Source: Nitrincola schmidtii (GTDB taxonomy: Bacteria > Pseudomonadota > Gammaproteobacteria > Pseudomonadales > Balneatricaceae). From it: DNA of 64,000 nucleotides. The stretch lies in the NCBI RefSeq assembly GCF_008973715.1, contig NZ_WBOL01000007.1, positions 62,001 to 126,000 of the forward strand, written 5' to 3'. Below are positions 24,211 to 41,800 of this stretch, piece by piece. The first letter of the stretch is position 1, and every line of letters begins with the position of its first letter. Made by a program: the position numbers and the translations under genes. The notes under the pieces were generated by a model. That model saw only the letters and a program-made list of their open reading frames with translations. It did not search any database and was not told where the DNA came from.

Positions 24211-25230
24211 ATGTCTCCGATTATGCGCCGTCGAGTGGATGCTTTTTGTCGCAACCGTCGTGGCTATTGGTCCTTATGGATCTTCTTGGCACTCTTTATA
24301 CTCTCGTTAGGTGCCGAGCTTATCGCCAACAACAAACCTATTCTGGTGAGTTTTCAAGGTAAACTCTACACGCCCATTTTTACCAGCTATTCAGAATTAG
24401 AATTTGGTGGCGAGTTTGACCTTCCAGCTGACTTTCGTGACCCTTTTGTTAAAAACTTAATTGATGAAGCCAATGGCTGGATGATTTGGCCGATCATTCG
24501 CTACAACTATCAAACCATCAACTTCGACCTCCCCTCACCGGCACCATCACCACCCTCATGGGAGAACTGGTTAGGTACTGATGATCAAGCACGCGATGTC
24601 ATGGCTCGTGTCATATACGGTTTTAGAATCTCTGTACTGTTTGCGTTGGTTTTGACCCTTGCCAGTTCTGTGATTGGGGTTGCAGCCGGTGCTGTTCAAG
24701 GCTTTTATGGCGGTAAAGTAGACTTGCTGTTTCAACGTTTCATTGAAATCTGGTCAGGCTTACCCGTACTGTTTTTATTGATCATTCTTGCTAGTCTGGT
24801 CGAGCCAAACTTCTGGTGGCTACTCGGTATTATGCTGCTGTTTTCTTGGATGAGCCTTGTTGACGTAGTTCGTGCAGAGTTCTTACGCGGAAGAAATTTA
24901 GAATATGTCAGAGCAGCCCGAGCATTGGGTTTGAATAACAGCACTATTATGTTCAGGCATATCTTACCTAACGCGATGGTGGCAACCCTGACCTTTATGC
25001 CGTTTATCTTTAACGGCTCAATTGTAACTCTGACCGCCCTTGATTTCTTAGGCTTTGGTTTACCACCGGGTTCACCTTCCTTGGGTGAGTTAGTGGCTCA
25101 AGGGAAAAATAATCTTCACGCGCCTTGGTTAGGCCTTGCTGCCTTCTTTACCCTGGCGTTGATGCTGACCTTGCTGATCTTCATTGGTGAAGCGGTTAGG
25201 GATGCTTTTGATCCACGCAAAATTAACTAG
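24211..25230 (+). CDS. yejE: Peptide ABC transporter permease YejE
   Basis: A 339-aa DppC/OppC-class permease: N-terminal cytosolic stretch and first helix (RRGYWSLWIFLALFILSLG), a periplasmic insert, then the core membrane domain with EAA-type loop RAARALGLNNSTIMFRHILPNA. It would pair with YejB. In E. coli and Pseudomonas a double-domain ATPase gene follows; here the next gene is on the opposite strand and overlaps the yejE 3' end by eight bases, so no ATPase is encoded in this cluster. Confidence 0.92.
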   Translation: MSPIMRRRVDAFCRNRRGYWSLWIFLALFILSLGAELIANNKPILVSFQGKLYTPIFTSYSELEFGGEFDLPADFRDPFVKNLIDEANGWMIWPIIRYNYQTINFDLPSPAPSPPSWENWLGTDDQARDVMARVIYGFRISVLFALVLTLASSVIGVAAGAVQGFYGGKVDLLFQRFIEIWSGLPVLFLLIILASLVEPNFWWLLGIMLLFSWMSLVDVVRAEFLRGRNLEYVRAARALGLNNSTIMFRHILPNAMVATLTFMPFIFNGSIVTLTALDFLGFGLPPGSPSLGELVAQGKNNLHAPWLGLAAFFTLALMLTLLIFIGEAVRDAFDPRKIN

Positions 25231-25705
25231 CGTTTCGGTATTTACTCTTAAGACGAACATAGACTCGACGGGTTACCTTAGCAACTAAAGTACCCTGTTG
25301 GTCTTTAATATAGACCACAAACTCAGGGAAGAACTTATCCCCTTCGGCAGTTTTCTGACGAATCTCATGAAGTTGTTCGTCATTTAAATGGAATTCAGCG
25401 GTCAATCGTCCAATCCCTGGAGAGATAAAATCTATCTCTGCTGAGCTATCCCAAATGTGGTAGCGATGAAAACCCAAGCACCCAAACAATAATAATGCGT
25501 AAAATGGGTCCGTCATAGAAAACAAGCTACCACCGTACTGGCTGCCATTAATATTGCGTGTAGATGTTTTCCACTTCAAATCGACGCGAGCGTAACGGAA
25601 ATCTTTACTCAGCTCGACTAACTTAATGCCACAGAACAGCATCGGTGGCCATAGGTTCATACCGAGACGAAATAACCATGGATGACGGAAGAAAAAAGCT
25701 TTCAT
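25223..25705 (-). CDS. DUF4442 / hotdog-fold thioesterase-like protein
   Basis: A 160-aa protein resembling the DUF4442 group of hotdog-fold acyl-CoA thioesterase relatives: NINGSQYGGSLFSMTDPFY corresponds to the substrate-side helix and RVYVRLK to the final strand. There is no signal peptide. GAGG lies seven bases before the ATG. It is 73 bases downstream of the sensory operon on the same strand, so read-through is possible, but nothing in its sequence links it to signalling. Substrate unknown. Confidence 0.75.
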   Translation of the reverse strand: MKAFFFRHPWLFRLGMNLWPPMLFCGIKLVELSKDFRYARVDLKWKTSTRNINGSQYGGSLFSMTDPFYALLLFGCLGFHRYHIWDSSAEIDFISPGIGRLTAEFHLNDEQLHEIRQKTAEGDKFFPEFVVYIKDQQGTLVAKVTRRVYVRLKSKYRNAS

Positions 25706-25778
25706 AACAAACCTCTAGAAAATCAAAGCCCATGCTAACATGAGCTGTAGTGATCTCTAGTGACAAATTAGGTCAAGC

Positions 25779-26543
25779 TTAATGAATGGAAAAGTCAACT
25801 TCAGGAAGTTCTTCGAAACCGGGTTTTGCAAAATAATAACCTTGCATTAAAGACACCCCTAACGATCGAAAAAATTCAACCTCTTCGATCGTTTCAAGTC
25901 CTTCTGCCAGCACCCGTACGCTAAGCTCTTTGCACATGGCAACCAGGTGCCTAACAATGATCTGCTTAGTGGGATTTTTATCAATATCCCTTATCAAATC
26001 CATATCAATTTTTAGCACACTGGGCAAAAAATCAGCCAATAAATTCAATCCAGCATGACCAGCACCAAAGTCATCGATCGCGGTGATGAAACCTTGTTTT
26101 TCGTAGCTTTTAAAAATATTGGTTAGATGCTGTCGATTATAGACCTGTTCAGATTCAACGATCTCAAACATCAGGTTTTCAATAGGAAAGCCTGTCTCTT
26201 TAGCTGCCGCCAAGGTGCTACGAATACAATGTGCAGGCTCGTAAACTGCATTAGGCAAGAAGTTAATACTGAGTACTTTATCAAGTTTTAGTGTTGCCGC
26301 TAATCTAATTGCTTTTACACGACAAGCTTGGTCAAAAGCATAACGATTCTCATCATTTACTTTTTCCAAGACACTGTAAGCAGATTCGCCCTTCGGCCCT
26401 CTAACTAGGGCTTCATAACCAAAAATTTCTTTAGCATTCAGGTCGATAATCGGCTGAAATGCAAAGCTGAAATCAAATTCTAATGGTACATAGCAAAAGC
26501 CACATCCAATACTGGAAATCTCTTCAGGAAACTGCGTGCTCAA
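25779..26543 (-). CDS. Stand-alone EAL c-di-GMP phosphodiesterase
   Basis: A 254-aa protein with a single EAL domain (about 24-250) and a short N-terminal stretch containing a Cys pair (GCGFC). The catalytic set appears complete: EAL in YEALVRG, Asn in SINFLPN, Glu in FEIVESE, IDDFGAG, Lys in VLKIDMD, Glu in LAEGLE and the final QGYYFAKP. It should hydrolyse c-di-GMP to pGpG. The start is a TTG with AGGGGG seven bases upstream. It is the last of six genes in the light/chemotaxis operon, 26 bases after the multi-PAS MCP-like gene, and would lower c-di-GMP locally. Confidence 0.88.
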   Translation of the reverse strand: MSTQFPEEISSIGCGFCYVPLEFDFSFAFQPIIDLNAKEIFGYEALVRGPKGESAYSVLEKVNDENRYAFDQACRVKAIRLAATLKLDKVLSINFLPNAVYEPAHCIRSTLAAAKETGFPIENLMFEIVESEQVYNRQHLTNIFKSYEKQGFITAIDDFGAGHAGLNLLADFLPSVLKIDMDLIRDIDKNPTKQIIVRHLVAMCKELSVRVLAEGLETIEEVEFFRSLGVSLMQGYYFAKPGFEELPEVDFSIH

Positions 26544-26569
26544 GATATGCCCCCTATTTATTTAAGCTT

Positions 26570-28321
26570 TTAACCGTTAATGCGCTCGAGTGATACCGCA
26601 AGTTGATCAATTCTTGTTCGAGTTGCACCCACTAAACCACCGATTTGACCTGCAGATTCTGAAGAACGACTGGCTAACTCTCTGACTTCTGAAGCCACAA
26701 CCGCAAACCCTCTTCCAGCTTCTCCAGCTCTAGCCGCTTCAATGGCAGCATTCAACGCCAGCAAGTTCGTTTGTCCTGCTATGCCCGAGATGCTACCAAC
26801 GATATCACCTATCTGATTACCCACCTTTAACAATTCGTCCATCGCTTGATGCGTTTCTTTCAATGCAATTTGGCGATCGGTAATATCAACACCAAAGACG
26901 ACAAAGCGAGTGACTTTACCTTCGAAGTCTTTTAATTCACAGACACGAGCATCGAATGATCGCTGAACACCATGATGATCGGTAAACTCTACAATCAAAC
27001 TGACTTGATTACCTTTATCCAGCTCTGATTTACGTGATTTTTCAGCATTTAACTGCTGCCAAATCGAATCTGAAGCTTTTCGCGCAGTCTCTTGATTACC
27101 CGCGCGCTTTAAGAATAGCTCATTGGTATGAGCCAAGGTACCATTAGGATTCCATTCCACTACCATGAGTGACTCGTTAATTAAATCTAAACGATCTAAA
27201 GAGTCTTTAGCGGCTTGTTTCATGGTGGTTATATCAGCTTGAACCGACACAAAACGATACAGCTTTCCATTTGAATCAAACACAGGGTTGATCGACATGG
27301 CTATCCAATAAGGTTTACCGTCTTTAGTGTAGTTCAATATCTCTTCATAAAACGGCTGATGACGGGATAGTTTTTCTCTAATGTGTTCTACAGTGACTGG
27401 ACTAGTCTCAGGTCCTTGCAAGAATTTACCTGGAACTTTTCCTTTCACTTCGTTTAAATGATAGCCAGTCATCAACTGAAATCCTCTATTAACATACAGA
27501 ATCTCACCTTTTGGACTGGTAATGATAACGGCATTACTGGTTTCGTTTGCCACCAGTGACAACATTTCAATTTCTTCACGTTTCGCCACTTCGTCAGTGA
27601 CGTCTTTAACAAATGCAGTGAATAAAACTTCTCCAGCGACTTCAACTTTCGCTAAGGTTATCAAACCCCAGCGCACTTCACCGCTTTTAGTATGCACCGG
27701 CAACTCTATCGGCTTACCGATTAATCGGTTAACACCAGTGTCTCGGTTACGATTAACATAGTTATCATGGTTGGAACGATGTTCGGGAGCCACCAACATC
27801 TTGATATTCTGGCCCAACATCTCTTTGGCAGAATAGCCCCATAACTTCTCCGCTGCAGGGTTGGCAAAAATGATGTTGTTTTGTGAATTGATTGTTACCA
27901 CACCATCATGCGCTTGATGGAGAACTTGCTCCACCATGCCACGCTCTGCACGCTCTTTGCTACAATCCCGGGCAAACGCGGTGTAGTAAAGTTTATTGCC
28001 AAGCTTTACCTGTGAAAGGGTTATGTTAGCCCAGGTTTTGGAACCGTCCTTTTTTTCTAACTCTAATTCTACCGAAGAGCCAACAATTTTATTATTGCCC
28101 TCGTTGCGATGACGATTGACATAATTATCGTGATTCGGCTGGTGCATTTTGGGCACCAGCATCTTCACATTGTTACCCAGCACTTCATTAACTGAGTATC
28201 CCCATAGCTTTTCAGCGGCAGTATTCATATAGATAACGATATTATCGGGATCAATGGTCACAACAGCGATCACACTTTGATCAAGTGAGCGTTTCGATAA
28301 ATCTGGTTTTCCAAAGAACAT
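26570..28321 (-). CDS. Soluble four-PAS receptor with minimal MCP signalling tip
   Basis: A 583-aa cytosolic protein. PAS1 (about 15-120) and PAS2 (about 135-240) are near copies, both with AEKLWGYS and [11 protein letters not shown]3 (about 255-365) is LOV-like: [22 protein letters not shown] and a final VQADIT, but the photoactive Cys position is Gly298. PAS4 covers about 376-490. Residues about 505-583 form only the conserved hairpin tip of a chemoreceptor ([20 protein letters not shown]), far shorter than a normal signalling domain and without a methylation-helix bundle or CheR-docking pentapeptide. AAGGGG precedes the ATG. It may signal through CheA/CheW or compete with full receptors. 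Confidence 0.87.
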
Positions 28322-28338
28322 TAACTACCCCTTAGTTA

Positions 28339-29964
28339 TTATACTTTAAACTGCTCAACTTGATATTTGAGCTGTTGTGCTAGTTCTGATAGTTGCTGAC
28401 TGGCTATCGATGTTTGCTCAGCACCTTCTACGACTTCACTGACGATACTGACCACTGTATGGATATTTTGATTGATATCATTGGCAACGGCGGTTTGTTC
28501 TTCAGTGGCTGATGAAATATGCACATTCATATCCACAATTGTACCCACTGCAGCGCTGACGGATTCAAAGGTTTCACCATTAACTTTGGCATTTTCAACA
28601 CCTTGCTGTGCGGCTTCATTTGAAAGCTTCATTTGTTGCACGGCTTTTTTAGCAACCGATTGAAGTTTGCTGATGCTATCTTGGATACGCTCAGTCGATT
28701 GACGGGTACTGCCTGCTAAATTTCGAACTTCATCAGCAACCACCGCAAAACCTCTCCCAGCATCACCTGCTCTTGCAGCCTCTATCGCCGCATTCAAAGC
28801 CAAAAGGTTGGTTTGTTCCGCGATGGATTCAATCATATCCAGTACTTCAGTAATTTGGTCAGCCTGAGCATCTAACTCACTAATTTGCGCAGCTGACTCA
28901 CTGATATTTCTGGCCAGGGATTCAATCATTTTGATCGTTTCACGTGTTCTTGTTAAACCTTGTCGAGCCTGATCATTGGCATGATCTGCAGATGTGGAAG
29001 CACTTTGAGCGTTCGAGGCAACTTCTGAGATAGCAGCAGTCATTTCATTAATAGCGGTGGCAATCATGGTGGTTTGATCTTCTTGATTGCGCGCACTACC
29101 GCTGACTTGAGTACTGATGGCACTCATCTCTTCAGCAGAAGCAGCCAAGGTTTGACTTGCGGCTGCCAAGTTATGAATAAGCTTTTGAAAATGATCGATC
29201 AATTTGTTAAAGGATTCACCCACTTCTGCAAGTTCATCCGTTCCTTCGACTTTGGTTCTTAAAGTCAGATCTGAATGTTTACTAATGTCAGACATGGTAT
29301 TAACCAGACGACTAATCGGCTGCTGGATGGACATGGAGATTTTCCAGGCAATCAATGCCGTGATCAGCGCAGCAACCGTTCCCATGATCATAAATAGATT
29401 ACGATCACGAATAAATTGCTCCACACTTGCATCACGCAGCTTTGAAGCTTCTATTAATTGATAGTTAGTAGCTTCATCAATAGCAGCAGAAAGGGGGTCG
29501 AAAGTGCCAAACAATCGAGAATTAAATTCTCTATCTGAAAGAGTGATCAACGATCCCTGTTCAGCAGCTTGCAAAAACTCATCCTTTAAACGCATTGCTG
29601 CCGTCAGTTCTTGCTGAATTCGATCAATTAAACGTCGCTCTTCATTATCCATATTGCCAGAGGAAACACGATTCCATGAGCGGTCACCTACCTCTGCGGC
29701 ATCCGATAGGGTTGTGCGCAATTCTTGAAGTGAAAACAGCCCTGATCTGTATTTTTGAAAAGCATCGACCGAGGTCACGGCATAGCTATCCGCAAGTTGT
29801 TTAAGCTCGCGTAAAGGGACGATACTTTCGTTATACATTTGGGTCGTATTTTCGCTTAAGGTTTGCATATCCTTAATCGCGATGACATAACTAATAGCCA
29901 GAACAACGATAGGAAAAACACATAATGCTATTAAACGTGTCGTTACTTTGAATTGATTAAGCAT
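28339..29964 (-). CDS. Methyl-accepting chemotaxis protein, transmembrane
   Basis: A 541-aa receptor with TM1 (about 11-31), a periplasmic four-helix-bundle-like domain (about 32-188), TM2 (about 190-210), HAMP (about 212-265) and a full cytosolic signalling domain with tip [23 protein letters not shown] split around residue 385. There is no C-terminal pentapeptide. AAGGA lies seven bases before the ATG, and the gene overlaps the heme oxygenase stop by eight bases. In this operon it is the most direct membrane partner for the CheB/CheR domains and could receive the phytochrome signal; ligand unknown. Confidence 0.9.
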
Positions 29965-30547
29965 AGTTCATTCCTTGTGTACGGTTTCTAGACATAGATT
30001 GCAATGAGTGAATAAAACACTCAAAAGCGACTTTTGCTGCAGAGACTACTTGTTCTTCATCGATATTTTTAATTGTTGTTAATTCAGTAAATCCTTTCCA
30101 GCCAGAGGCTTGGTCATGGATAGCCGATTGAAAGAAGGCTGTTGGAAGATGTTTATCCGACAAACAACGCAGAATGTATCGCCCTCCTAGCTTTGAACCT
30201 TCGAGTACATAAAGAATTCCTAAAGCCATTGATGGATTAGAAATATTCAGTTCCAATATAGGGTTATCGGCTGGTTGTTCATTTAATTGAATTAAATCTT
30301 TTTCAATCAATGGGTAACGTAACGTGTATTGATAAGATGGGAAATAAAGTGATAAGGCCGAAACGAGATTAATCTCAAGAGCTTTTTGAGGTGGATAAAG
30401 TGCTTGTAGTGACGTTATATACTCCTCTGTAGTTAATTTATTATTCACTAATACTTTTAAAATTTTATGCCCATCCAGATGACTATGTAACAGATCAGTA
30501 TGATGTCTTAAATTTTCCAATAAATCTCTATTCATGTTGCGAACCAT
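29957..30547 (-). CDS. bphO: Biliverdin-producing heme oxygenase (BphO-like)
   Basis: A 196-aa all-helical protein of the heme oxygenase family, which opens heme to biliverdin, CO and iron. The N-terminal [13 protein letters not shown] contains the likely proximal heme ligand (His21 by alignment pattern), and [13 protein letters not shown] matches the distal helix with its Gly-rich kink. The start may be ATG 30547 or ATG 30535; both overlap the end of the phytochrome gene (20 or 8 bases). Coupling to a bacteriophytochrome gene is the classic bphO-bphP arrangement and implies supply of chromophore. Confidence 0.86.
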
Positions 30548-32027
30548 CTACTGAAAACCAACTAATGTTTCTATTTGACGATCTTTGCAGTTCATCTCTT
30601 AGTCTCAGTAGTCGAAGTCGAGTAGCGCTTTCCCAAGCTCGGCTATAACCTAAACGTTTTTCTATCCACTTACCAAAAGACTGTCGGGGAGCAATACCCA
30701 GCACGCCATCGTGATATTCCACAGGTTTATTGGGATTACCTCCCCATATCACTTCATCCACTTGCTCTATCCTAAGTAAAAATAAATGAGCATTGGTACC
30801 GTTCTTCATACGAATACGTAAACCTGCAGCACCTGCTATATGGGTCAACAAATCAGCTGAAATCAACTCTCTGATTCGATCTTTGTAAAACACCAATTCA
30901 TTACAGTGTGAACGGAACCAACCTTCAAGTTGTTCAATCAATGGCTGTTCGAAAGGAAGACCTGCACTAAGCGATAACTGTTGGTGAGACCAAACAACAG
31001 CGTCAACATCAAACTCCTTAAGTAACCAATCACTAAAATATTGCCACTGAGATTCTTGCTCATGCATCACTTCAAGAGACTTGAGCATTTGGTTGGTGTT
31101 GTATGCTATCTCATCCACTAAACGCACACGATGAGTGGTTATAGTGTTTCTAAGCAGTCTATTAAACTCATTCACCACCTCTTTAATCTCAGATAAACGC
31201 TTCAGAGGTAAAGTGCGTGACTCATGGCTGTGACAAGAAATTAGTGCATCAAGCTCTTGGCCAGCACTAATCGGAAAGGATAAAGATGAACGATCTCCCA
31301 TATTTTGCATATAAATTGCATGAACAGGAGAGACACTTCGTAGATCTGAATAGGTCAGATCTGCTCTCGTTTGACCCAATAAACCGTTGCTTTCTGCCTT
31401 GGCATCAGAAATAACACGCCATGGATTTTTCAGGTAGAGCTGTCTAGCAATGAGTGGTATGTCACTGGCAGGAAAACGTAAGCCTAAGTAACTGCCACGA
31501 GAAGCCACTTTTGATACTTCAGCAATCACTTCGCCATCACCACCTTCAAGGAACTGGTAATACATGACACGCTCAAAACCGGTCACTTCTGCTATCCAAG
31601 ACACCAACTGCTCACGAAGTGACTGCAAGCTTGATAGATCTGAAATATCTTTAAAACCTGGTGGAAGAACCCATTTTGGGGCATCCAGTTGATGCTTGAA
31701 GAACTCTAGAATCAGTTCATTTTCCGCACCGCGAGTGATAATTAAATCAAAACCTCCTTTATCGGTATCAAGTGCAGAATAAAGCTCAGAACGATATCCC
31801 ACTGTATTTGAATATGAGAACAACGCTGGAAGTAATGTTTTAGATAATACAGATTCTGCAAAATCATAGGGATCAAGACCTGTAAAGCCCAAAAAATTCT
31901 CAGAATAATGGGTCAGTTCAAAGCCTTTGGATAAAATAATAATTGCCCCATGTGATTGAATAGCACCACTAAACTGGAGCTGCTCTTTCTCACAATCATC
32001 AAGAAATCCACGATGTAAGCTACTCAT
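30528..32027 (-). CDS. bphP: Bacteriophytochrome photosensory core (PAS-GAF-PHY) without kinase
   Basis: A 499-aa red/far-red photoreceptor module. PAS (about 8-115) has Cys12 in DDCEKE, the biliverdin attachment position, followed by SGAIQSHGA. GAF (about 130-300) has the DIP motif (189-191, in FPASDIP) and the chromophore-pocket His236 (SPVHAIY) and His266 (ISCHSH). PHY (about 310-490) keeps the tongue residues WGG (428-430) and PRQSF (447-451). The protein stops right after PHY, with no histidine kinase or other output domain. Its ATG overlaps the stop of the CheB-CheR fusion gene (ATGA), and its stop lies within the heme oxygenase gene. Output must be by interaction with another protein (inference). 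Confidence 0.92.
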   Translation of the reverse strand: MSSLHRGFLDDCEKEQLQFSGAIQSHGAIIILSKGFELTHYSENFLGFTGLDPYDFAESVLSKTLLPALFSYSNTVGYRSELYSALDTDKGGFDLIITRGAENELILEFFKHQLDAPKWVLPPGFKDISDLSSLQSLREQLVSWIAEVTGFERVMYYQFLEGGDGEVIAEVSKVASRGSYLGLRFPASDIPLIARQLYLKNPWRVISDAKAESNGLLGQTRADLTYSDLRSVSPVHAIYMQNMGDRSSLSFPISAGQELDALISCHSHESRTLPLKRLSEIKEVVNEFNRLLRNTITTHRVRLVDEIAYNTNQMLKSLEVMHEQESQWQYFSDWLLKEFDVDAVVWSHQQLSLSAGLPFEQPLIEQLEGWFRSHCNELVFYKDRIRELISADLLTHIAGAAGLRIRMKNGTNAHLFLLRIEQVDEVIWGGNPNKPVEYHDGVLGIAPRQSFGKWIEKRLGYSRAWESATRLRLLRLRDELQRSSNRNISWFSVDGSQHE

Positions 32028-35000
32028 TTTTTCAACAGTGCTCCAAACTCATCTGCGCTAATAGGCTTAGATAGAAAATAGCCTTGAATTTGATCACAAC
32101 CATGATGTTGTAACCAGGCTAATTGCTCTTGTGTTTCGACACCTTCAGCAACGGTCCTTAGTCCTAGCGCTTTTGCCATCCCTAAAATAGCTTTGGCTAT
32201 CGCCTCATCATTTTCATCAGTACCAAGACCGTCTACAAACGTCTTATCAATTTTCAACTCAGTTAATGGCAAACGCTTCAGATAACTTAATGACGAATAA
32301 CCCGTACCAAAGTCATCCACCGAAAGCTTAATGCCCATGTCATGCAGCAATAGTAAACCGTCCGCTTCTTCACCCTCGTTCGTCATTAAAGAACCTTCAG
32401 TAATTTCTACTAAAATTGACGAAGGTGGAAGAAGGTTATCTTTTAATAAACCTTGCAGACGGTCAGCAAACCCCTTATCTCTAATGGATCTAGCACTCAC
32501 ATTCATGGCAACGGGCGGACAAAAAATGCCTTCATGCTTCCAATTGAATAATTGTTTGACCAACATTTGCTCGACGAGTTTTGCTAAATCGAGAATCTGA
32601 GTGCTTTTTTCAGCAACGGGAATAAAGTCCGAAGGACTGACCTGCCCTAGCGTTTTATCCTTCCAGCGAAGCAAGGCTTCAGCACCGACAACTCGAGTCG
32701 TATCATGAGCATCAAACTTGGGTTGATAGACTAGATATAAGTTTCTATGTTGTATTGCCTCATATAATGCACTTTCAATCGCAGCCTGTTTCAGTATGTG
32801 AGTGCGATGTTCAGGTCTAAACAGTTGTAAACGATTACGGCCATCCTCTTTAGCACGATACATGGCTGTATCCGCAGCTTTAATCAAACCCGATGAATCG
32901 TCCGCATCTTGCGGATAAAAAGCTGCACCGATACTTGCGGAAACAAACACCTTTCTACCTTGAATAAGGAAATGACGATTCATTTCATTCAAAATACGAA
33001 CGGCGATGATTTCGGCATCCTCAACGACACATTCAGTCAGTATGACGGTAAACTCATCTCCACCAATGCGTGCGACCGTGTCCACATCTCTCACAACACT
33101 TCTAAGTCTATCTGCCGCTTCAAGAAGCAACTCATCGCCAGCGTGATGACCTTGGGTATCATTGATGGATTTAAAATTATCGAGATCAATAAACAACAAT
33201 GCCAAACTAGATTTATGTCGACGTGCTTGTGCAATCGCATGATCTATTCGATCTTGAAATAGATTACGATTAGGTAAATTGGTTAAGGTATCGTGAGTCG
33301 CTAAAAACTCAACTTTACGTTGAGAGTCTTTTAAATCGGTAATGTCTGAAAAAACTGCGACAAAGTATTCAACTTCATTCTCTTTATTCTCAATTCGATT
33401 GATGTTTAGCCATTCAGGATAGACTTCACCCGACTTACGCTTATTCCAGATTTCACCCTGCCAGTAGCCACGATGATTTAACTCTGACCACATGCGCTCA
33501 TAGAAATCTTTACTATGGCGACCTGATTTGAGTAACCTCCCGATTGAGCGCCCTACCGAATCAGCACTGTCATAACCGGTAATGCGGGTAAACGCTTCGT
33601 TCACAGATTGAATAAAACCGCTGCCGTCAGTAATAGCAATGGCCTCACCCGCATTTTCGAAGACTCTAGCGGCTATCTTTAGTTGATCTTCAGCGTGGCG
33701 ACGACGCGTTACATTTTCAGACTCGGTAATAATAACTTCTGGCTGACCTATGCTATTTCGAAGCACTTGATGGACAGTTTTATAAATCTGCTTGCGACCT
33801 TTCAACTCAAAGGTATGTTCTTGCTCTTTAACCAATCCTGTTCGTATCGCTTCAAGATCACATGCCCACAAGCTGCCCGCAAATGAATTGGGAAAGAGTT
33901 CAAAATCATTTTTACCAATGTAATCATCTAAACTTAGGTTAAAAGCTTCCAGAAAACGGCGATTAGCAAAGAGGTATCGGCCATTCAGATCCTTCATGGC
34001 CATCAATACCGTGGTGTTTTCCATCAAGGTATCCAGGCGAGATTGTGATGCTTTTAACTCTGATTGCGCCTGTGCAACATCGGTGATATCAAGAATAGTC
34101 ACCACTAAGGATTGAATTCGATTATGTAAATCCAAGCCTGGGGTAACGGTCATCTGGAGTGTTCGTCCCTCTCCAGTTAACAAGACTTCTTCACGATCGC
34201 CATGCGCAAGAACGGACTGCATTAGCGAAGGAATAGATTTTAGATGCTCCGGAAATCGTATTCTTTCAACATTTTGCATAATAGCTGTCGGTCTTAAGTT
34301 AAAGCGACGACCAGCAGATGCATTAAAGCGACGTAAACACCCCTTCTCATCAAACACTAAGATTGGGAACTCTACCGCGTCATAAAGATGACTGTACTCG
34401 TTGGTTAACTGCATTAACTCAGCAGTTTTAACATTCATCTCTTCATTAAGGCTAACTAGCTCTTCATTCGTGGCTTGCAACTCTTCGTTGGCAGCTTCTA
34501 ACTCTTCATTCGTTGCCTGCAACTCCTCGTTAGCTGCCTGAGCCTCTTCATTTAAAGATTGCATCTCTTCATTAGCGGTCGCTAACTCTTCGATCAAAGA
34601 CTGCAAGTGCTCTCTGGTGGCAGAAAGTTCCTCCGCCATTTCCAATTCAGGAATCAGTGGCGGCTGAAAATCAGGTGTGTCTATCTCTTTCTTAGAAACG
34701 ACGTTACTGATCATTACCACGAAGGATCCATCAAGCCTTAAGGAAACCGGAAGCACTGCCATCTGAAAATTTTTATCATCCAAAAAACGAGGACGACCGA
34801 TTTGACGCTTACTGGTTTTTTTAAAGCGATGCAGCAATGCCATTAACTCACCCTGGTAGGTGTTTAGAATGACATCTGAGACGGTTGCGGAGGCATTTCC
34901 AACGGGAAAGTGAAAATATTGACCGACTTGACCCACGGTATGAATCACTCGACCCGATGAATCACATAAGGCCAACGTTGCGTCTAAATAGGTAGCAACA

Positions 35001-36499
35001 GCATCTAATAAAGTGGAGACATGGTCCGATTTTTTGTTGACGGGTGTCGATAAGCGCTTGGGTTTAGTACTTAACATAGGTAAAACACTACTGTCGCCTT
35101 GCTTAACAAAAAGACGCTCTCGCCTATTATCAGCAGAAAATAACTGCTCTGCTTGAACTATGCTCTCAGAGCGTCCTAAAAAAAGATAACCTGGATGTCT
35201 AAGCGCAAAATGAAAACGTTGCAGAACACGTGTCTGCAAGGGATTATCGAAGTAAATAAGCACATTTCGACACGTAATTAAATCGAGTCGTAAAAAGGGT
35301 GGATCGTCTACTAAGTTGTGACGTGCGAAAACAATCATGTCTCTAAGGCGTTTATTTACCTCGAAGTATTTTTGCACTGGTCGAAAAAATTGCTTCAGCC
35401 TATCCTGTGAAAGCGATGCTAGAGATGCTGAAGGATACAATCCACGCCTTGCTGTATTTAACGCTTCATCATCAATATCGGTAGCAAAAATCTGTAAAGG
35501 TTGAGTTAAAATTCTCTCCCCCAAGGTTTCAGCAAATAAAATAGCAATGGAATAAGCTTCCTCACCACTCGCACAACCTGCAACCCAGACTCTAATTTCT
35601 TCATCTATCGAGCGTTTATTACAAATATCCTCCACCTTTTCACGTAACACAGCGAAGGCATCTTTGTCTCGAAAAAAAGAGGTCACTGATATAAGGATAT
35701 CTCTTGAGAGTAGGTCTAACTCTTCAGGGTTTGAATTCACCCATTGCAAGTAATCTTCTGTGGATTCATGACCTGTGGCGACAACTCTTCTGCGAATACG
35801 ACGCGCTAAGGTACCAATCTTGTAACCGGAAAAATCCACCTGACATCGTTTCTTCAGCAAACCCAGCAATTGATTAAGAGCGTTATCAGGAACCTTATCA
35901 ATATCAACCGCTTTTGCGGGGATCAATAAAGGTAAACGTGCGGCGATTTGATCAGGAGATAGAATAAAATCTGCAACTCCCGCTTCAATAGCGGACTGAG
36001 GCATACCCGGATACTTAGCTGTATCTGGCGTTTGAACAATAGTAATACCGCCAGCGGCTTGTATTGATCGAAGGCCAGCGGTACCGTCCGAACCAGTTCC
36101 AGAAAGTACAATACCGACCGCACTCTCTCCCGCTTCAGCGGCCAAGGATATAAAGAATTCGTTAATAGATGGCTTAGGAAAGACTTCCGGCTCTGCGGGT
36201 TGAAGATGCAGCACACCATCTTTTATAGACGCATTAAAACTAGATGGAACCACATAAATGGTTGCTTTTTCTGGTTTTGTACCATCTTTCATCTCAACAA
36301 CCTTAAGTGCGGTTTCACGGCTTAAGATTTCAGCCATCATGCTTTTATGAGAAGGGGAAAGATGTTGCAGAATAACAAAACTAAGATGTGTACTAGGCTG
36401 AAGAGAAGATACAAAACGCGACAGTGCCTCTAAGCCGCCGGCAGAAGCACCTATACCTACCACTGGAGCAGTGGCAAAGCTTCCCTGTGTTTCACTCAT
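32024..36499 (-). CDS. CheB-CheR-PAS-GGDEF-EAL fusion protein
   Basis: A soluble protein of about 1491 aa. CheB methylesterase domain (about 11-190) with catalytic Ser19, His46 and Asp138 but no receiver domain. CheR methyltransferase (about 205-470) with SAM loop AGCASGEE (307-314) and CRNVLIYF. A PAS-like segment (about 490-605), then a long NEEL/ATNEEL coiled coil (about 620-700) and three PAS domains (about 700-810, 815-930, 940-1055). GGDEF (1146-1150) is intact, with inhibitory-site RDVD exactly five residues before it. EAL (1274-1276) is intact with DDFGTG and EGVET. ATG 36499 is preferred over an adjacent TTG; AAGG lies upstream. First gene of the sensory operon. Confidence 0.92.
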   Translation of the reverse strand: MSETQGSFATAPVVGIGASAGGLEALSRFVSSLQPSTHLSFVILQHLSPSHKSMMAEILSRETALKVVEMKDGTKPEKATIYVVPSSFNASIKDGVLHLQPAEPEVFPKPSINEFFISLAAEAGESAVGIVLSGTGSDGTAGLRSIQAAGGITIVQTPDTAKYPGMPQSAIEAGVADFILSPDQIAARLPLLIPAKAVDIDKVPDNALNQLLGLLKKRCQVDFSGYKIGTLARRIRRRVVATGHESTEDYLQWVNSNPEELDLLSRDILISVTSFFRDKDAFAVLREKVEDICNKRSIDEEIRVWVAGCASGEEAYSIAILFAETLGERILTQPLQIFATDIDDEALNTARRGLYPSASLASLSQDRLKQFFRPVQKYFEVNKRLRDMIVFARHNLVDDPPFLRLDLITCRNVLIYFDNPLQTRVLQRFHFALRHPGYLFLGRSESIVQAEQLFSADNRRERLFVKQGDSSVLPMLSTKPKRLSTPVNKKSDHVSTLLDAVATYLDATLALCDSSGRVIHTVGQVGQYFHFPVGNASATVSDVILNTYQGELMALLHRFKKTSKRQIGRPRFLDDKNFQMAVLPVSLRLDGSFVVMISNVVSKKEIDTPDFQPPLIPELEMAEELSATREHLQSLIEELATANEEMQSLNEEAQAANEELQATNEELEAANEELQATNEELVSLNEEMNVKTAELMQLTNEYSHLYDAVEFPILVFDEKGCLRRFNASAGRRFNLRPTAIMQNVERIRFPEHLKSIPSLMQSVLAHGDREEVLLTGEGRTLQMTVTPGLDLHNRIQSLVVTILDITDVAQAQSELKASQSRLDTLMENTTVLMAMKDLNGRYLFANRRFLEAFNLSLDDYIGKNDFELFPNSFAGSLWACDLEAIRTGLVKEQEHTFELKGRKQIYKTVHQVLRNSIGQPEVIITESENVTRRRHAEDQLKIAARVFENAGEAIAITDGSGFIQSVNEAFTRITGYDSADSVGRSIGRLLKSGRHSKDFYERMWSELNHRGYWQGEIWNKRKSGEVYPEWLNINRIENKENEVEYFVAVFSDITDLKDSQRKVEFLATHDTLTNLPNRNLFQDRIDHAIAQARRHKSSLALLFIDLDNFKSINDTQGHHAGDELLLEAADRLRSVVRDVDTVARIGGDEFTVILTECVVEDAEIIAVRILNEMNRHFLIQGRKVFVSASIGAAFYPQDADDSSGLIKAADTAMYRAKEDGRNRLQLFRPEHRTHILKQAAIESALYEAIQHRNLYLVYQPKFDAHDTTRVVGAEALLRWKDKTLGQVSPSDFIPVAEKSTQILDLAKLVEQMLVKQLFNWKHEGIFCPPVAMNVSARSIRDKGFADRLQGLLKDNLLPPSSILVEITEGSLMTNEGEEADGLLLLHDMGIKLSVDDFGTGYSSLSYLKRLPLTELKIDKTFVDGLGTDENDEAIAKAILGMAKALGLRTVAEGVETQEQLAWLQHHGCDQIQGYFLSKPISADEFGALLKK

Positions 36500-36536
36500 C
36501 AACGAAAACCTTATTACAAAAATTCAAACAAAAATG

Positions 36537-36566
36537 TATATAAATAGTAGTGAATACATTCTTCAA
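36537..36566 (-). promoter_or_regulatory. Candidate promoter of the light/chemotaxis operon
   Basis: On the minus strand TTGAAG (36566-36561) and TATATA (36542-36537) are 18 bases apart, about 38 bases before the start of the fusion gene. The strong terminator upstream implies that the operon needs its own promoter in 36503-36650; this is the best sigma70-like match I see. A TGTTATGAT extended -10 around 36572-36580 is an alternative. Confidence 0.3.
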
Positions 36567-36649
36567 TGGATCATAACAGAGAGGGACTTAATTACCAGAA
36601 ATTTTAAATTGCTAAGTGAGATTTCTTTAGCATGAATTTGAAAAATATG

Positions 36650-36699
36650 GAAAAAAATAAAAAAAGAGCTGAGATCGATTCCGTTTCGATCTCAGCTCT
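36650..36699 (-). terminator. Intrinsic terminator of the two-partner secretion operon
   Basis: A perfect 14-bp stem (36665-36678 with 36686-36699, seven-base loop) is followed on the minus strand by a long U-rich run (TTTTTTTATTTTTTT). It lies 21 bases after the stop of the IalB-like gene and isolates that operon from the sensory operon downstream. Confidence 0.93.
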
Positions 36700-36720
36700 A
36701 TCTCCTGCCACTTTCAAACG

Positions 36721-37212
36721 CTACTTAACCGATTGACTAGCTCGAGTGAACCCCATTAAGGACATCTCTAAAACCAGTGTTTCATTGGTATTGAAGGGAC
36801 GAAAACCAATTTTGGTCACACTGCCTGCGCGCAGTGCCGCAAGACGCGCATCATCGAGTGGAAACGCAACTAAACACCCTTCCTGCACACAGGTCAAAAA
36901 GCCAGAACCAAACTCTTCACCTTCATCAATTTGCATCACAATTCCGGCACGCAGATCTAAACCCAATGGCAGCAAGAGTTGCATCACCAGTTGGTTGTCC
37001 ATCATGTTAACGGATGCACGCAAAAGACGAGCATTACCTTGCTCATTTTCCATGTTTAAGGTTTGCTGAATTTCGCAGCGCTCTTGGCCTTGCACATCCG
37101 CACAAACGCCCACCCAGTCTTGGTATTCAGTGACACGGGGTTCTTGGGCAAAGGCTAGTCCACTAGCAATGAGTCCAGTCAAGGCAGCGGTTTTTACAAA
37201 GCTTTTTAGCAT
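36721..37212 (-). CDS. Invasion-associated locus B (IalB)-like periplasmic protein
   Basis: A 163-aa exported protein: signal peptide ending AFA (about residue 22), then a domain matching the IalB family (WVGVCADVQGQERCEIQQTL, later a second Cys pair in FLTCVQEGCLVAF that may form disulfides). IalB of Bartonella contributes to host-cell invasion, but the family is common in free-living bacteria with unknown function. It is the third gene of the adhesin operon, 18 bases after the transporter gene, and ends at a strong terminator. A periplasmic accessory role in adhesin secretion is inference. Confidence 0.82.
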   Translation of the reverse strand: MLKSFVKTAALTGLIASGLAFAQEPRVTEYQDWVGVCADVQGQERCEIQQTLNMENEQGNARLLRASVNMMDNQLVMQLLLPLGLDLRAGIVMQIDEGEEFGSGFLTCVQEGCLVAFPLDDARLAALRAGSVTKIGFRPFNTNETLVLEMSLMGFTRASQSVK

Positions 37213-37230
37213 GGAGTGTGTCCTTAATTT

Positions 37231-38862
37231 TTAAAAACGGTAGTTCATTGTAAACCAAATTCTAGGATCTCGCTGCTTGTCATCAGAATCTGCTTCACCA
37301 CCCTCTATCTTCCATGCTGAGCTCAGATCCATGCTAAAGGCATCACGGTTGTAGCGCAAACCAATACCCGCTCCGGCTAGATTTCTTCGATCGCTGTCTA
37401 CGCCACCTCTTGGTGTTGAACCCGCATCATAAAACGCATAGGGAGAAAAATGCGCATCAATCGCATAACGCATCTCTATTTGCGCTAACCAGCCACGACT
37501 GTCCGATCCTTCACCGACAGGGAAAGCACGCACACCATTTGGCCCACCTAATGAGAAGGATTCCGAGCCGTCTAGATCGCGTTTATCTGCATATTGAGTG
37601 CTGACATTACCAAATAAGGTAATTTGATCGTTTACACGCTGCAGACGTGCCAACTGGAGGTTGGTTTTAGTAAAGGAGTATTTTTCACTTTGATCATTAT
37701 TATCACTTTGTTTCAGTCGACCAGAAGTGATCTGAAGATTACCAAACGTAATGCCTCCACCGCCTAATCCATCACGATGATCAAACTGCAACGACACTGG
37801 AATAGAATTCACAGTTTTTTTACTGCTAAAATCATCTTGAGTTCGATTATCTTTAAGCTCTTTGTAATCGTAACTACCCGCTAAAACTAGATTCGATCGC
37901 TGACTTCTGAGGATAGGATAACTCAAACCCACACTGGTAACTTTGGCCAGACCGGTTGCCCCTAACGCACTAAAGTCTTTACCCAACTGATAATCCGTAT
38001 GCGCGTAACTGACGTTACCACGCAAACCTGAATACCCCAACGGCAAAGAGTAACCAACTTGACCTAACCAAGTATCTTCACTGGTGTAAAGCGCTCGGAC
38101 TGAGAGCTCATCACCGAGCATCAACAAACGGTTATAACGCAAATCGGTTTGACCGCGATACTCGCCACTAAAACGGTTACCGTGATTATCTAACCCTACA
38201 CTGCCACTAAACTGTGGTTCTTCAAACACTTGAACATCTAAATCACCCGCACCGACTTCGGCACTGGGTCGCATCACCGGAACAACGCGCACACCCGGCA
38301 AGTCGCCCAATAGTAAGGTACTACGCTCTAACTGAGTCGACTCAATCACATTGCCGGGTTTCAACTGATGCAAAAAAGGCAAGGCATCCGCAGCCACTGA
38401 TGCATCACCGCTAGTAATGACCTGACCATATCTACCTTCAATCAATTGTATAACCAATACCCCTTCGCTCATGTTTTGCGCGGGAATAACGGCACGGGCA
38501 AAAGGATAGCCATTATTGCGATAATGAATACTGATTTGATTTGCTAGCTGACGCAAACCAGCCAAATCATAATCATTACCGATTACATCGCCCAAGACAG
38601 CCATCAATGCTTCAGCAGAATATATGCTGTTACCGGTAAATCGAATACCTGTTAAGTTGACTGTCGCACCTCCAGGTTCTGCATCCGTCAAAGGCTGACC
38701 TTCAACGGTAAAGTCCACTGAAGGCGCAAGTGGTTGAAGTGTTTGCGGCAAACTATCTTGTAAAATTCGTCCAGCATCCGGTGGTGTTTGAGCTGCCACC
38801 GGAAGTGAAAACGCCACAGCCAAAGCTAGAATTGAAGGCTTAAAAAAAGGTTGTACAGTCAT
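37231..38862 (-). CDS. Two-partner secretion outer-membrane transporter (FhaC/ShlB family)
   Basis: A 543-aa TpsB protein that moves its adhesin partner across the outer membrane. Signal peptide (cleavage near PVAAQ), POTRA repeats (about 65-225, including VNLTGIRFTGNSIYSAEALM and GVLVIQLIEGRYG), then a 16-strand barrel with the conserved loop motif VRAFPVGEG (VRGY/F type) and a C-terminal Phe for barrel assembly. It follows the giant adhesin gene by 24 bases. The gene order tpsA-tpsB is less common than tpsB-tpsA but well known. Confidence 0.92.
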   Translation of the reverse strand: MTVQPFFKPSILALAVAFSLPVAAQTPPDAGRILQDSLPQTLQPLAPSVDFTVEGQPLTDAEPGGATVNLTGIRFTGNSIYSAEALMAVLGDVIGNDYDLAGLRQLANQISIHYRNNGYPFARAVIPAQNMSEGVLVIQLIEGRYGQVITSGDASVAADALPFLHQLKPGNVIESTQLERSTLLLGDLPGVRVVPVMRPSAEVGAGDLDVQVFEEPQFSGSVGLDNHGNRFSGEYRGQTDLRYNRLLMLGDELSVRALYTSEDTWLGQVGYSLPLGYSGLRGNVSYAHTDYQLGKDFSALGATGLAKVTSVGLSYPILRSQRSNLVLAGSYDYKELKDNRTQDDFSSKKTVNSIPVSLQFDHRDGLGGGGITFGNLQITSGRLKQSDNNDQSEKYSFTKTNLQLARLQRVNDQITLFGNVSTQYADKRDLDGSESFSLGGPNGVRAFPVGEGSDSRGWLAQIEMRYAIDAHFSPYAFYDAGSTPRGGVDSDRRNLAGAGIGLRYNRDAFSMDLSSAWKIEGGEADSDDKQRDPRIWFTMNYRF

Positions 38863-38886
38863 TATCAGTTTCCTTAATCGCTAGCT

Positions 38887-41800
38887 TTAGTTAAGAATTT
38901 CAGGGGTAGAAGACTCATCACTACTGCCACCCTGTCTAGACTGTCCCTCGACGTTAATGCCGCCGTCGATGACAAACATCCGCAAGAATCCAGTAGCATT
39001 GCCATTACCTAACATAGCCAAAGAACCAAGGTCGCTACTCTCTAACTCAATCACCTCAAGTGAACCTACCTGGCCTGTGCCTCCTTGAGCAGCAGTGTTT
39101 GGTATGGTTAGTGAGGTGTTATTGAAGAATTGAATGCCTTGCAGAAATGGTTGTGAGGATTTTGGTATGCTAGCGATAACCTCCTCTAAAGAACCTTCAG
39201 GTATCGGTTGCTGTGTTGTATCTTCAGTTGGCTCTGGAGCCGGAACAGGAGTTGGTTCCGGAGTGGGTTCTGGCATGATTTGAAGAGTACCATCAACAAA
39301 AGCGATGTCATATCCAAGGCCATTGTCTAAGCCACTCGGTGTCAAAACATACATACCCTCTTCAATAGCACCTTGACTATTACCTCCATACACCAAAGCA
39401 CCCGTTAGAACTGACTCAGCGTCTCCATTAACTAGACCAGATATATCTATACCATTTCCGCCAGAGTAAGGAGTCGCACTAACGGTTTTATTATCATTTC
39501 TAGCCGAAACAGTGATCGTCGGCTGTTCTCGGTAAATAGCAAATATTCCCTCTTGACCCAATGCAGTAGTAAAGTTTGTGGTTGTGGCATTACTGTTATA
39601 GCGGAAATTGCCAGAACCAGAACCAACAAGATCAGTGACACCAGTGCTGCCATTCACACTACCTGTGTAAAGTAAAGCTCGTCCACCATTGGCGGTTGTA
39701 ATGCTGCCGTTTTGATGAATGATGTTACCGCCATTGGCTGTTCCAGCTAAAGCGCTTCTAGCCGCATTTAGTAGAATTGCATCATTGTCGGAGGAGTCAG
39801 ACGAGATATTTCCATTTACTATTAAATTACCTACTTGAGTCGCGACATTAATTTTACTACTAGCGGTGATACTTACTAATTCAAGTGCATCGCTATTCGT
39901 AAAACTTACACTACCTGTATTAGCAGTCAGTATATTCACGTTATTTTGAATACTTTCAAGTGTGTAATCTACACCCGCACCTAAAAGATTCAAGGTATTT
40001 GCGGTAATCGATCCTTCAAAGTTAATAAAGGTATTGGAGTTCAGTGTGATATCACCCGTGAACGGATTAACACCATCATAACCAATACTACTTGTTGTGT
40101 TCCCCGGCCATACATTGATGCCTGCTACATTTGAATTAGCAGAAAGGCCACTCAAACTAATGTTACCCGTTTGTGAAACAATATTTTCTTGGCTAGATCC
40201 AAAGAGAAAAATACCGCCATACTGTTGATCAAAGCCTGAACTGTTGAGACGACCTGTTATATTGATATCACCTGAGTTAGACCGGATTTCGACAAGACTA
40301 TTATTGTTATTCCAACCATAAAGTCCTATACCTGCACCATGGTTTTGCTCTTGAAAAGAGGTTTCACCATTAATAGATATATTGCCACTGGATGAAGCAA
40401 TTGAAGATGTTTGATTGTTCAAGTAAGTGGTCATTAACAGACCATAATACCAACTAGCAGTTGCACTGCTATTATTCGAAATCGCTCTGATTTCAATATT
40501 GCCATCACCTGAATCAATAGAGGATTTATCGAAAAGAATTCCAATGTAACCCTGAGCAGTACTTGATTGGTTTGCACTCATACCGGATAGCGAAATATTG
40601 CCACCTCCTGTGGAAATATTGGAGTTAGATATTGAAATTCCATTGAGGTAATTCAAGGATGAACCCAGCGTCACCGCATGAGCACTTCCAGCCATGGCAT
40701 ACCCATCGCCAACACTTAAGCCATTCCAGTTTATCGTCCCATTGCCACCTCCCATCCAAAGATGTCCACCATTGGTAGTAATAGTTGAACTATCCATCAA
40801 ATATATAGAACCTGCACCCGATCCATCTGCATCAGACCACACTGTTAAAGAAGCATTTTCATTCAAAGAGCCCATCATTGAGGAACTTGACTCCAAAACG
40901 ATGTCGTTTGCTGTTTTTAACGTAAGGTTGTCATTAAAAATAGTGTCACCGCCAACCGCAATATTGCCGGCGGTGTCACTTCCGATGATGATATTGGAGA
41001 AACCATTAACAAAGTTAGTACTGAAATAGCTTGAATCCAACGATAGCGTACCTGAGGCACCACCAATACCGATCGTATTGGCCGTGGTATTCGGATTAAT
41101 GACGAGATTTCCAGATGAGGAAATTCTTTGATTACTGGATAAATCTAGAGTGTCAGCGACGATCGTTATATCTCCGCCTTCTGTGCTTTGTATCAAGTTG
41201 TTTACATTTCCCGAGTTCAGACTCACACCCTCTGAACTTCCATGCAAGCCAGCTGTACCCTGCAAAGTGATTGAACCGTTTGCAGTAGTCAGTTTTCCGC
41301 CGTCGAGTCTGATACCATCATTATCAGTGTTTGCTGTAATGCTGGCATTACCTCCACCGCTACCAATCAGGGTGATATTTCCTGCACCACTTGCAATTAA
41401 ATGTGAGTTTGCATCCATGCGAATGCCATGATTTTGCCCACCATTAGACCCCGCACTTTGACCGCCACCTTGACCGTTAACAGTAATATCACCGGTCGCA
41501 TTCATGGTGGTGTTTTCAATCCCTACACCCCAGTTACCTCGATTGGTATCATCGCCTGTCGCAGTATTAGCCGAGCCAATACCATGAATAGAGATATTAT
41601 TGGCGGTGATGGTGTTGCCACCGTTAAAACGAGTCCCTATCCCGAAGCGATAATCTGTCTGAAAACTCTTGCCCGACATGTATAGATCGCCGCTTCCTGC
41701 ATCTAGTGCGGCACCAATAACATTAATACCGGCATAGGTTTCATTTACGTTAGAATCAGCAATTGACGTATTCAAATTAGCGGCGTAGGAATTGCCCACT

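Follow-up and report, generated by a model that had tools for sequence, protein, structure and literature searches.

A bacteriophytochrome without an output domain encoded beside a CheB-CheR-PAS-GGDEF-EAL fusion: a conserved gene pair and a proposed light switch in trans

The window analyzed here is a 64,000-nucleotide stretch of Nitrincola schmidtii DNA (contig NZ_WBOL01000007.1, positions 62,001 to 126,000), and its minus strand carries a conserved core: a gene for a CheB-CheR-PAS-GGDEF-EAL fusion protein, then a gene for a bacteriophytochrome that ends just past its PHY domain, usually followed by a heme oxygenase gene. Judging from the sequences and from comparison with known systems, the phytochrome probably, though by no means surely, controls the fusion in trans, so that light would set cyclic dimeric GMP (c-di-GMP) and perhaps receptor methylation. 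The core genes in the window, in order of transcription, are as follows.

32024..36499, minus strand: core gene 1, CheB-CheR-PAS(x3)-GGDEF-EAL fusion, 1491 aa from ATG (open reading frame and Pfam)
30528..32027, minus strand: core gene 2, bacteriophytochrome without output, predicted PAS-GAF-PHY, 499 aa (Pfam, solved structures, and AlphaFold2 with Foldseek)
29957..30547, minus strand: core gene 3, heme oxygenase, BphO-like, 196 aa (Pfam and motifs)

The longest reading frame of the fusion opens with TTG at 36502; the ATG that directly follows, at 36499, matches the aligned homologues and is used here.

To define the distribution of the core, a phytochrome was counted as output-less when a match covering the core of the protein lay in an open frame no longer than 581 codons; those of 640 codons or more were uncounted and their extra parts unscanned. 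Genomes are given by our own handles, G000 being the window's. A search of the class covered 369 genomes (15 with a match at E ≤1e-20; four counted, namely the window's own, G135, G202, and G304), a search of the phylum covered 398 (66 with a match at E ≤1e-40; four counted, namely the window's own, G431, G679, and G776), and a search of the order of G304 covered 251 (52 with a match; seven counted, namely G304, G886, G988, G807, G898, G1010, and G906). Of the 10 other genomes of the genus, 4 have an output-less phytochrome (G005, G006, G008, and G009). Shorter frames in G1034 (C267 and C369), G978 (C3), and G1037 (C177) and the broken frames of G796 stayed outside the count. Output-less phytochromes were thus counted in 17 genomes of ten genera and seven families, with G431 lying outside the window's class; the 17 are not independent, as five come from one genus. 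All 17 have a CheB-CheR gene immediately upstream in the same orientation, which carries GGDEF and EAL domains in 16, with a spacing of −8 to +47 bases at the 11 loci measured, and a heme oxygenase gene lies directly downstream in 14/17. The exception for GGDEF and EAL is G202 (L081 10232-15284), where the CheB-CheR frame lacks the GGDEF-EAL part and continues into that of the phytochrome at about residue 39 of the latter. In that genome, a separate 1071-residue PAS-GGDEF-EAL gene was seen just upstream of the CheB-CheR frame. The fusion frame is broken in the assembly in G431 and G988. At one further locus, G420 (L084 6569-8577), a phytochrome frame of 447 codons lacks the PRxSF tongue and is followed by a 204-residue GGDEF frame, with no CheB-CheR match in the stretch read; from its sequence the locus looks like a split phytochrome-GGDEF gene and was left uncounted (17/18 if counted).

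Neighborhoods of other phytochromes were examined as controls. Around ten control phytochromes with open frames of 728 to 1222 codons, whose output domains were inferred from frame length, CheB or CheR was found in none of the regions of 9 to 17 kb (0/10; the L157 region holds 0.7 kb upstream). A larger control of 50 loci had a heme oxygenase gene beside the phytochrome gene in 21 and showed no CheB or CheR, 49 of these loci reaching ~1.5 kb to each side, which is too short to exclude them.

The window's phytochrome chain stops ~15 to 20 residues past PHY, and neither Pfam nor NCBIfam matched a histidine kinase or other output domain in its 499 aa. Pfam matched PAS_2 and PHY and left the GAF model unmatched, while the NCBIfam BphP model scored 113.9 bits, far under its cutoff of 1040. 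Solved PAS-GAF-PHY phytochrome modules align to residues 9 to 468. An AlphaFold2 model (mean predicted local distance difference test score, 84.8; predicted template modeling score [pTM], 0.79; low confidence at residues 1-6, 437-443, and 492-499) retrieved solved photosensory modules with Foldseek at E values down to 9e-38, and the best PDB match was a PAS-GAF-PHY module. Alignment and model together indicate the PAS-GAF-PHY fold of a bacteriophytochrome photosensory module. In the window, as in the relatives read, the phytochrome and the GGDEF/EAL part each have an open frame of their own and do not form a single polypeptide.

Photoswitch residues were named after what we take to be their counterparts in the Deinococcus phytochrome. 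The window's protein keeps Cys12, PASDIP, H236, H266, and the tongue, and it presumably binds biliverdin at Cys12. The residue table and trees comprise 15 intact output-less sequences, without G006, whose frame is broken, and G202, whose start is truncated; G906 is included in both and stands outside the 14-row model alignment. The chromophore Cys, the PASDIP Asp, both GAF His residues, and the W.G and PRxSF motifs of the tongue are present in 15/15, and 13 of the 14 checked photoswitch sites are invariant, a single Ser position being the one that varies. In the tree, the 15 sequences make up one side of a branch with support of 100/100 against 50 other phytochromes (49 distinct); by sequence, the output-less phytochromes are one family. 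Two titled records matched the window's phytochrome, a contig of Oceanospirillales at 86% identity and one of Nitrincola sp. at 59%. No close relative was found on plasmids, where the tblastn matches were 125 records, all below 60% identity; among the 15 of the 125 listed, the best had ~30% identity and 10 were annotated as histidine kinases.

Pfam matched CheB, CheR, PAS, GGDEF, and EAL domains on the fusion, which has both the CheB and the CheR domain with their catalytic motifs and so belongs among CheB-CheR fusions. No receiver domain was matched by Pfam on the fusion, where CheB begins at residue 15; the protein is therefore not a canonical CheB, and phosphorylation by CheA, which usually controls CheB, probably plays no part. 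Twelve long homologues, the window's included, were aligned, with G431, G988, G009, G006, and G202 excluded. The CheB catalytic Ser, His, and Asp, the S-adenosylmethionine (SAM) motif of CheR, and GGDEF are kept in 12/12 and the EAL residues in 11/12; the CRNVLIYF block of CheR has F in place of C in G679 and G776. A regular-expression count had pointed to EAL motif losses in four homologues and was rejected, as the alignment shows loss in G776 only. AlphaFold2 predicted a PAS-like fold, a long helix, and three PAS domains for residues 470 to 1065, at a pTM of 0.31, with which the placement of the domains is meaningless. A single origin of the fusion partner, relative to unlinked CheB-CheR fusions, received weak support (84/85) in a tree of 16 rows, two of them very long and G431 represented by its first open frame. 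Phytochrome and fusion distances were correlated over 12 taxa (r = 0.887; 0/5000 permutations as high), and the two trees share 7 of 9 splits. The window's genome also contains eight CheW-domain and five CheR-domain matches, two of the latter in further CheB-CheR fusions, so a chemotaxis system on which the fusion could act is likely present.

The heme oxygenase gene overlaps the phytochrome gene by 20 bases. Its product scored 45.8 bits against a Pfam cutoff of 23 and had no NCBIfam match. It carries LLHSHL and a second motif of 14 residues, in keeping with the proximal His and the G..YVLEGS.LGG motif that we take to mark BphO, and is placed among the BphO proteins on this basis.

The core of the window is flanked downstream by three further genes of the same strand and, on either side, by genes that mark the borders of the site.

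28339..29964, minus strand: 4HB-HAMP-MCP chemoreceptor (Pfam); seen beside the core in the window's genus only
26570..28321, minus strand: PAS-PAS-PAS receptor with a short MCP domain, here PAS-MCP (Pfam); the genus also has cases without the core
25779..26543, minus strand: stand-alone EAL phosphodiesterase (Pfam); older neighbor of the site, outside the conserved unit
25223..25705, minus strand: DUF4442 gene (Pfam); downstream border of the site
36665..36699, minus strand: terminator-like stem-loop with 14 pairs and a T run, between the IalB-like gene and the gene row
36721..37212, minus strand: IalB-like gene (Pfam); upstream border of the site

A sequence-only reading of this DNA had described the six minus-strand genes at 25779-36499 as a self-contained module joining phytochrome, chemoreceptors, CheB/CheR, and c-di-GMP enzymes. 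All six reading frames are present, and its end at 36499 agrees with the ATG of the fusion; the overlaps of 4, 20, and 8 bases and the gaps of 17 and 26 bases that it gave agree with the frame coordinates; and Pfam agrees with its domains for the genes, except that the signaling domain of PAS-MCP is short, matching 94 of 172 positions of the MCP signaling model. The link that it drew from light to CheB/CheR and c-di-GMP gained strength from the fusion-phytochrome pair in 17/17 genomes; the six-gene phototaxis module did not. As for the conservation of gene order that it had proposed as a check, three of the 11 genus genomes showed the six-gene order. Besides the window's genome, these are G006, on a single contig with broken frames, and G008, spread over two contigs that each contain part or all of the heme oxygenase gene. 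In G006 and G008, the order is fusion, phytochrome, heme oxygenase, MCP, PAS-MCP, EAL, and DUF4442. G005 is permuted (PAS-MCP, fusion, phytochrome, heme oxygenase, and MCP), at a different site and with its EAL gene elsewhere. The G009 contig shows the fusion from residue 287 onward, the CheB part being on another contig, and stops inside the heme oxygenase gene, so that the downstream order is not judgeable. The G009 draft holds two different fusion-phytochrome copies (L017 and L021), from a strain mixture or a duplication; their phytochromes have 86% and (over 149 residues) 74% identity to that of the window.

Beyond the gene order, the distribution of single genes argues against one conserved unit of six. 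G010 and G002 have IalB, then EAL, then DUF4442 (with ~124 and ~120 bases between IalB and EAL), which is an empty site. EAL homologues occur in 10/11 genus genomes, some without a phytochrome match, and PAS-MCP homologues in 8/11, without a phytochrome in G001, G002, and G007. The G001 site holds a frame-broken MCP gene and PAS-MCP, with no fusion, phytochrome, or heme oxygenase there. The MCP frame in G001 (L055 5971-7601) is split into frames of 338 and 196 residues, perhaps by decay after loss of the core or by sequence error. Because of the empty sites, the distribution of EAL and PAS-MCP homologues, and the G001 site, we conclude that the EAL gene is an older neighbor of the site and not part of the conserved unit and that the chemoreceptors are separable. 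MCP and PAS-MCP do adjoin the core in 4/4 core-bearing genus genomes with readable contigs (G000, G005, G006, and G008). Outside the genus, an MCP gene was found beside the core in 0/12 genomes in the stretch read, which spanned 7.7 to 19 kb and in G988 stops 1.6 kb past the phytochrome; a chemoreceptor is thus not conserved with the photoreceptor there. The six genes as one conserved unit were rejected on these grounds.

Two of the flanking genes have further features. The EAL protein is RimA-like, with an NCBIfam score of 360.2 bits that lies under the RimA cutoff of 430, and is not assigned to RimA. For the first two PAS domains of PAS-MCP, DosP was the best match among PDB structures, and the HDxY motif, with a His of the FixL/DosP type, is found in these two domains in 7/7 sequences (window's included). 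We take this His to be the proximal His on the F helix of FixL/DosP heme PAS domains; the residues presumed to correspond to the distal Met/Arg of DosP/FixL are not at matching places in the window's PAS-MCP. Speculatively, a heme-based PAS-MCP next to an enzyme that degrades heme could couple the sensing of oxygen to that of light in the genus.

Without an output domain, the phytochrome has to act through another protein. For a sensor that keeps its photoswitch, lacks an output, and is encoded beside one enzyme in ten genera, the simplest reading is that it regulates that enzyme in trans, and the most likely partner is the fusion encoded directly upstream. We propose that the heme oxygenase makes biliverdin, which the separate phytochrome would take up at Cys12. 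Red or far-red light would alter the phytochrome, and the altered protein would dock on the PAS/coiled-coil part of the fusion, perhaps via its short C-terminal helix. Docking would shift the balance of GGDEF and EAL activities and so change local c-di-GMP, and it may also change CheB/CheR activity on chemoreceptors; in the window's genus, where two chemoreceptors are encoded in the same gene row, the fusion may tune these as well. Complex formation, the sense in which light acts, and the physiology are inferred. Because the fusion carries four catalytic domains, light could set c-di-GMP, receptor methylation, or both, and the data do not separate the one effect from the other. A tentative extension, in which we place distinctly less confidence, makes the phytochrome a separable subunit of a four-enzyme hub: light would then directly set both receptor methylation, through CheB/CheR, and c-di-GMP, through GGDEF/EAL, without going by way of CheA and CheY.

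Several observations weigh against control of the fusion by the phytochrome. Agreement of the trees is expected of linked genes and is no proof of contact, and the conserved neighborhood could reflect co-expression without contact. Only nine positions distinguish the output-less set from other phytochromes by the criterion chosen, and they form no obvious interface or docking surface; the C-terminal helix of the phytochrome varies between lineages. In the G776 fusion (L156 3569-8068), the EAL half is degenerate, with several catalytic motifs lost, while GGDEF, CheB, and the CheR SAM motif are kept. G002, which has no phytochrome match, carries a related CheB-CheR-GGDEF-EAL gene (L058 3447-7922), 42% identical to the window's and frame-broken near its end. 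The heme oxygenase gene is not adjacent in G679, G776, and G988; matches elsewhere in the genome pass the family cutoff in G679 and G988 and fail in G776. Identity to G005 is lower for the phytochrome (53%) and heme oxygenase (37%) than for the fusion (70%). Finally, GGDEF and EAL domains occur near 3/10 of the control phytochromes (L157, L158, and L085); what sets the output-less group apart is thus its association with CheB/CheR and not that with c-di-GMP.

Among the other explanations, a six-gene phototaxis module, in which the CheA array and the two chemoreceptors encoded nearby would be the targets of the phytochrome, with adaptation by CheB/CheR and a c-di-GMP branch through the EAL protein, is in our view unlikely. 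The chemoreceptor genes beside the core in every viewable core-bearing genus genome speak for it, as do the CheW- and CheR-domain matches in the genome and, by its abstract, the phytochrome-like Ppr of Rhodocista, which interacts with CheW via its kinase domain (PMC2993699). The window's phytochrome has no kinase domain, however, the signaling domain of PAS-MCP is short, PAS-MCP and EAL homologues exist without a phytochrome, and the 12 core-bearing genomes outside the genus show no MCP beside the core in the stretch read. We regard as improbable a scheme in which the phytochrome governs only the CheB/CheR half, light writing receptor methylation while GGDEF/EAL answer to their own PAS domains: the CheB residues and CheR SAM motif are kept in 12/12 homologues while EAL is degenerate in one, and with no receiver matched on CheB, control must come from elsewhere, yet GGDEF is equally conserved (12/12).

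A slightly poorer prospect still is that the phytochrome has its partner elsewhere in the genome (a histidine kinase or some other protein) or serves to store biliverdin, and stands beside the fusion only for shared regulation. It has no output domain, and it and the heme oxygenase diverge faster than the fusion, but the same upstream neighbor in ten genera, with matching trees, is at odds with an unlinked partner, and the invariant tongue residues would be needless in a store. That the phytochrome is a decaying remnant left by loss of a kinase domain seems very hard to credit. The protein is shortened and its frame is broken in some relatives (G006 and G202), yet the sequences form one clade, with all but one of the checked photoswitch sites invariant in the 15 intact members, and the G006 contig matches a metagenome record of coverage 2.9. 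We retain control of the fusion in trans as the preferred reading.

The surroundings of the gene row were also surveyed. The strong terminator that had been placed upstream at 36650-36699 stands as a terminator-like 14-pair hairpin at 36699-36665; the scan as a whole gave 11 sites against a mean of 9.3 in shuffled sequence, near that mean, and the stem length of this one site is alone notable. No Rfam family was found at gathering score within 25000-37500. Beside the IalB gene, at 37231-44478, an FhaC-like transporter and a large FhaB-like protein could be read from the sequence as a two-partner secretion pair.

The module is real and conserved and is built of known parts; the partner relation is what we infer. 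A clade of output-less phytochromes with a named likely partner makes signaling in trans by a bacterial phytochrome directly testable. If the proposal is true, a single protein would connect red light with both c-di-GMP and the enzymes of receptor adaptation, and optogenetics would gain a natural c-di-GMP switch for red light made of two parts; if light sets methylation directly as well, this would be a light-written behavioral memory across several families of one bacterial phylum. No description of the module was found among the matches listed in the open-access literature (titles and abstract starts; subscription journals and preprints lay outside the scope), nor in the passages of PMC12826048, PMC5812497, PMC8846402, and PMC8396549 or the abstract of PMC2993699.

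The closest known system is of another photoreceptor class. In the passages of PMC8846402, the output-less BLUF protein PapB of Rhodopseudomonas palustris forms a complex with the EAL protein PapA and controls it. The likeness lies in an output-less photoreceptor and a separate c-di-GMP enzyme; in the present pair, the sensor gene is conserved beside the enzyme gene in 17/17 genomes, with GGDEF-EAL in 16. The difference is that PapB-PapA is a blue-light BLUF protein and a solo EAL protein with a reported complex, whereas the present pair is a phytochrome and a CheB-CheR-PAS-GGDEF-EAL fusion. Rhodobacter BphG, Idiomarina IsPadC, and the PYP-Phy-GGDEF-EAL protein of Thermochromatium, named in the passages, likewise tie a phytochrome photosensory module to c-di-GMP turnover in one chain; here, the sensor has a gene of its own, and CheB and CheR are part of the enzyme as well. 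The output-less phytochromes form a clade apart from the 50 sampled long-frame phytochromes, and the core, while resembling ordinary bphO-bphP pairs in having heme oxygenase beside phytochrome, differs from them in the lack of an output domain and in the CheB-CheR fusion as neighbor. Two systems link light to chemotaxis proteins. Ppr of Rhodocista (Rhodospirillum) centenaria is a phytochrome-related sensor that works via a histidine kinase domain and CheW, and the abstract names no CheB-CheR-GGDEF-EAL fusion (PMC2993699). Nitrincola alkalilacustris, for which the passages of PMC12826048 report flagella, a complete chemotaxis gene set, and phototaxis not detected so far, has a light sensor tied to a chemoreceptor as a PYP-MCP protein; there, PYP is fused to the MCP, while in the window the sensor is a phytochrome encoded on its own in a gene row.

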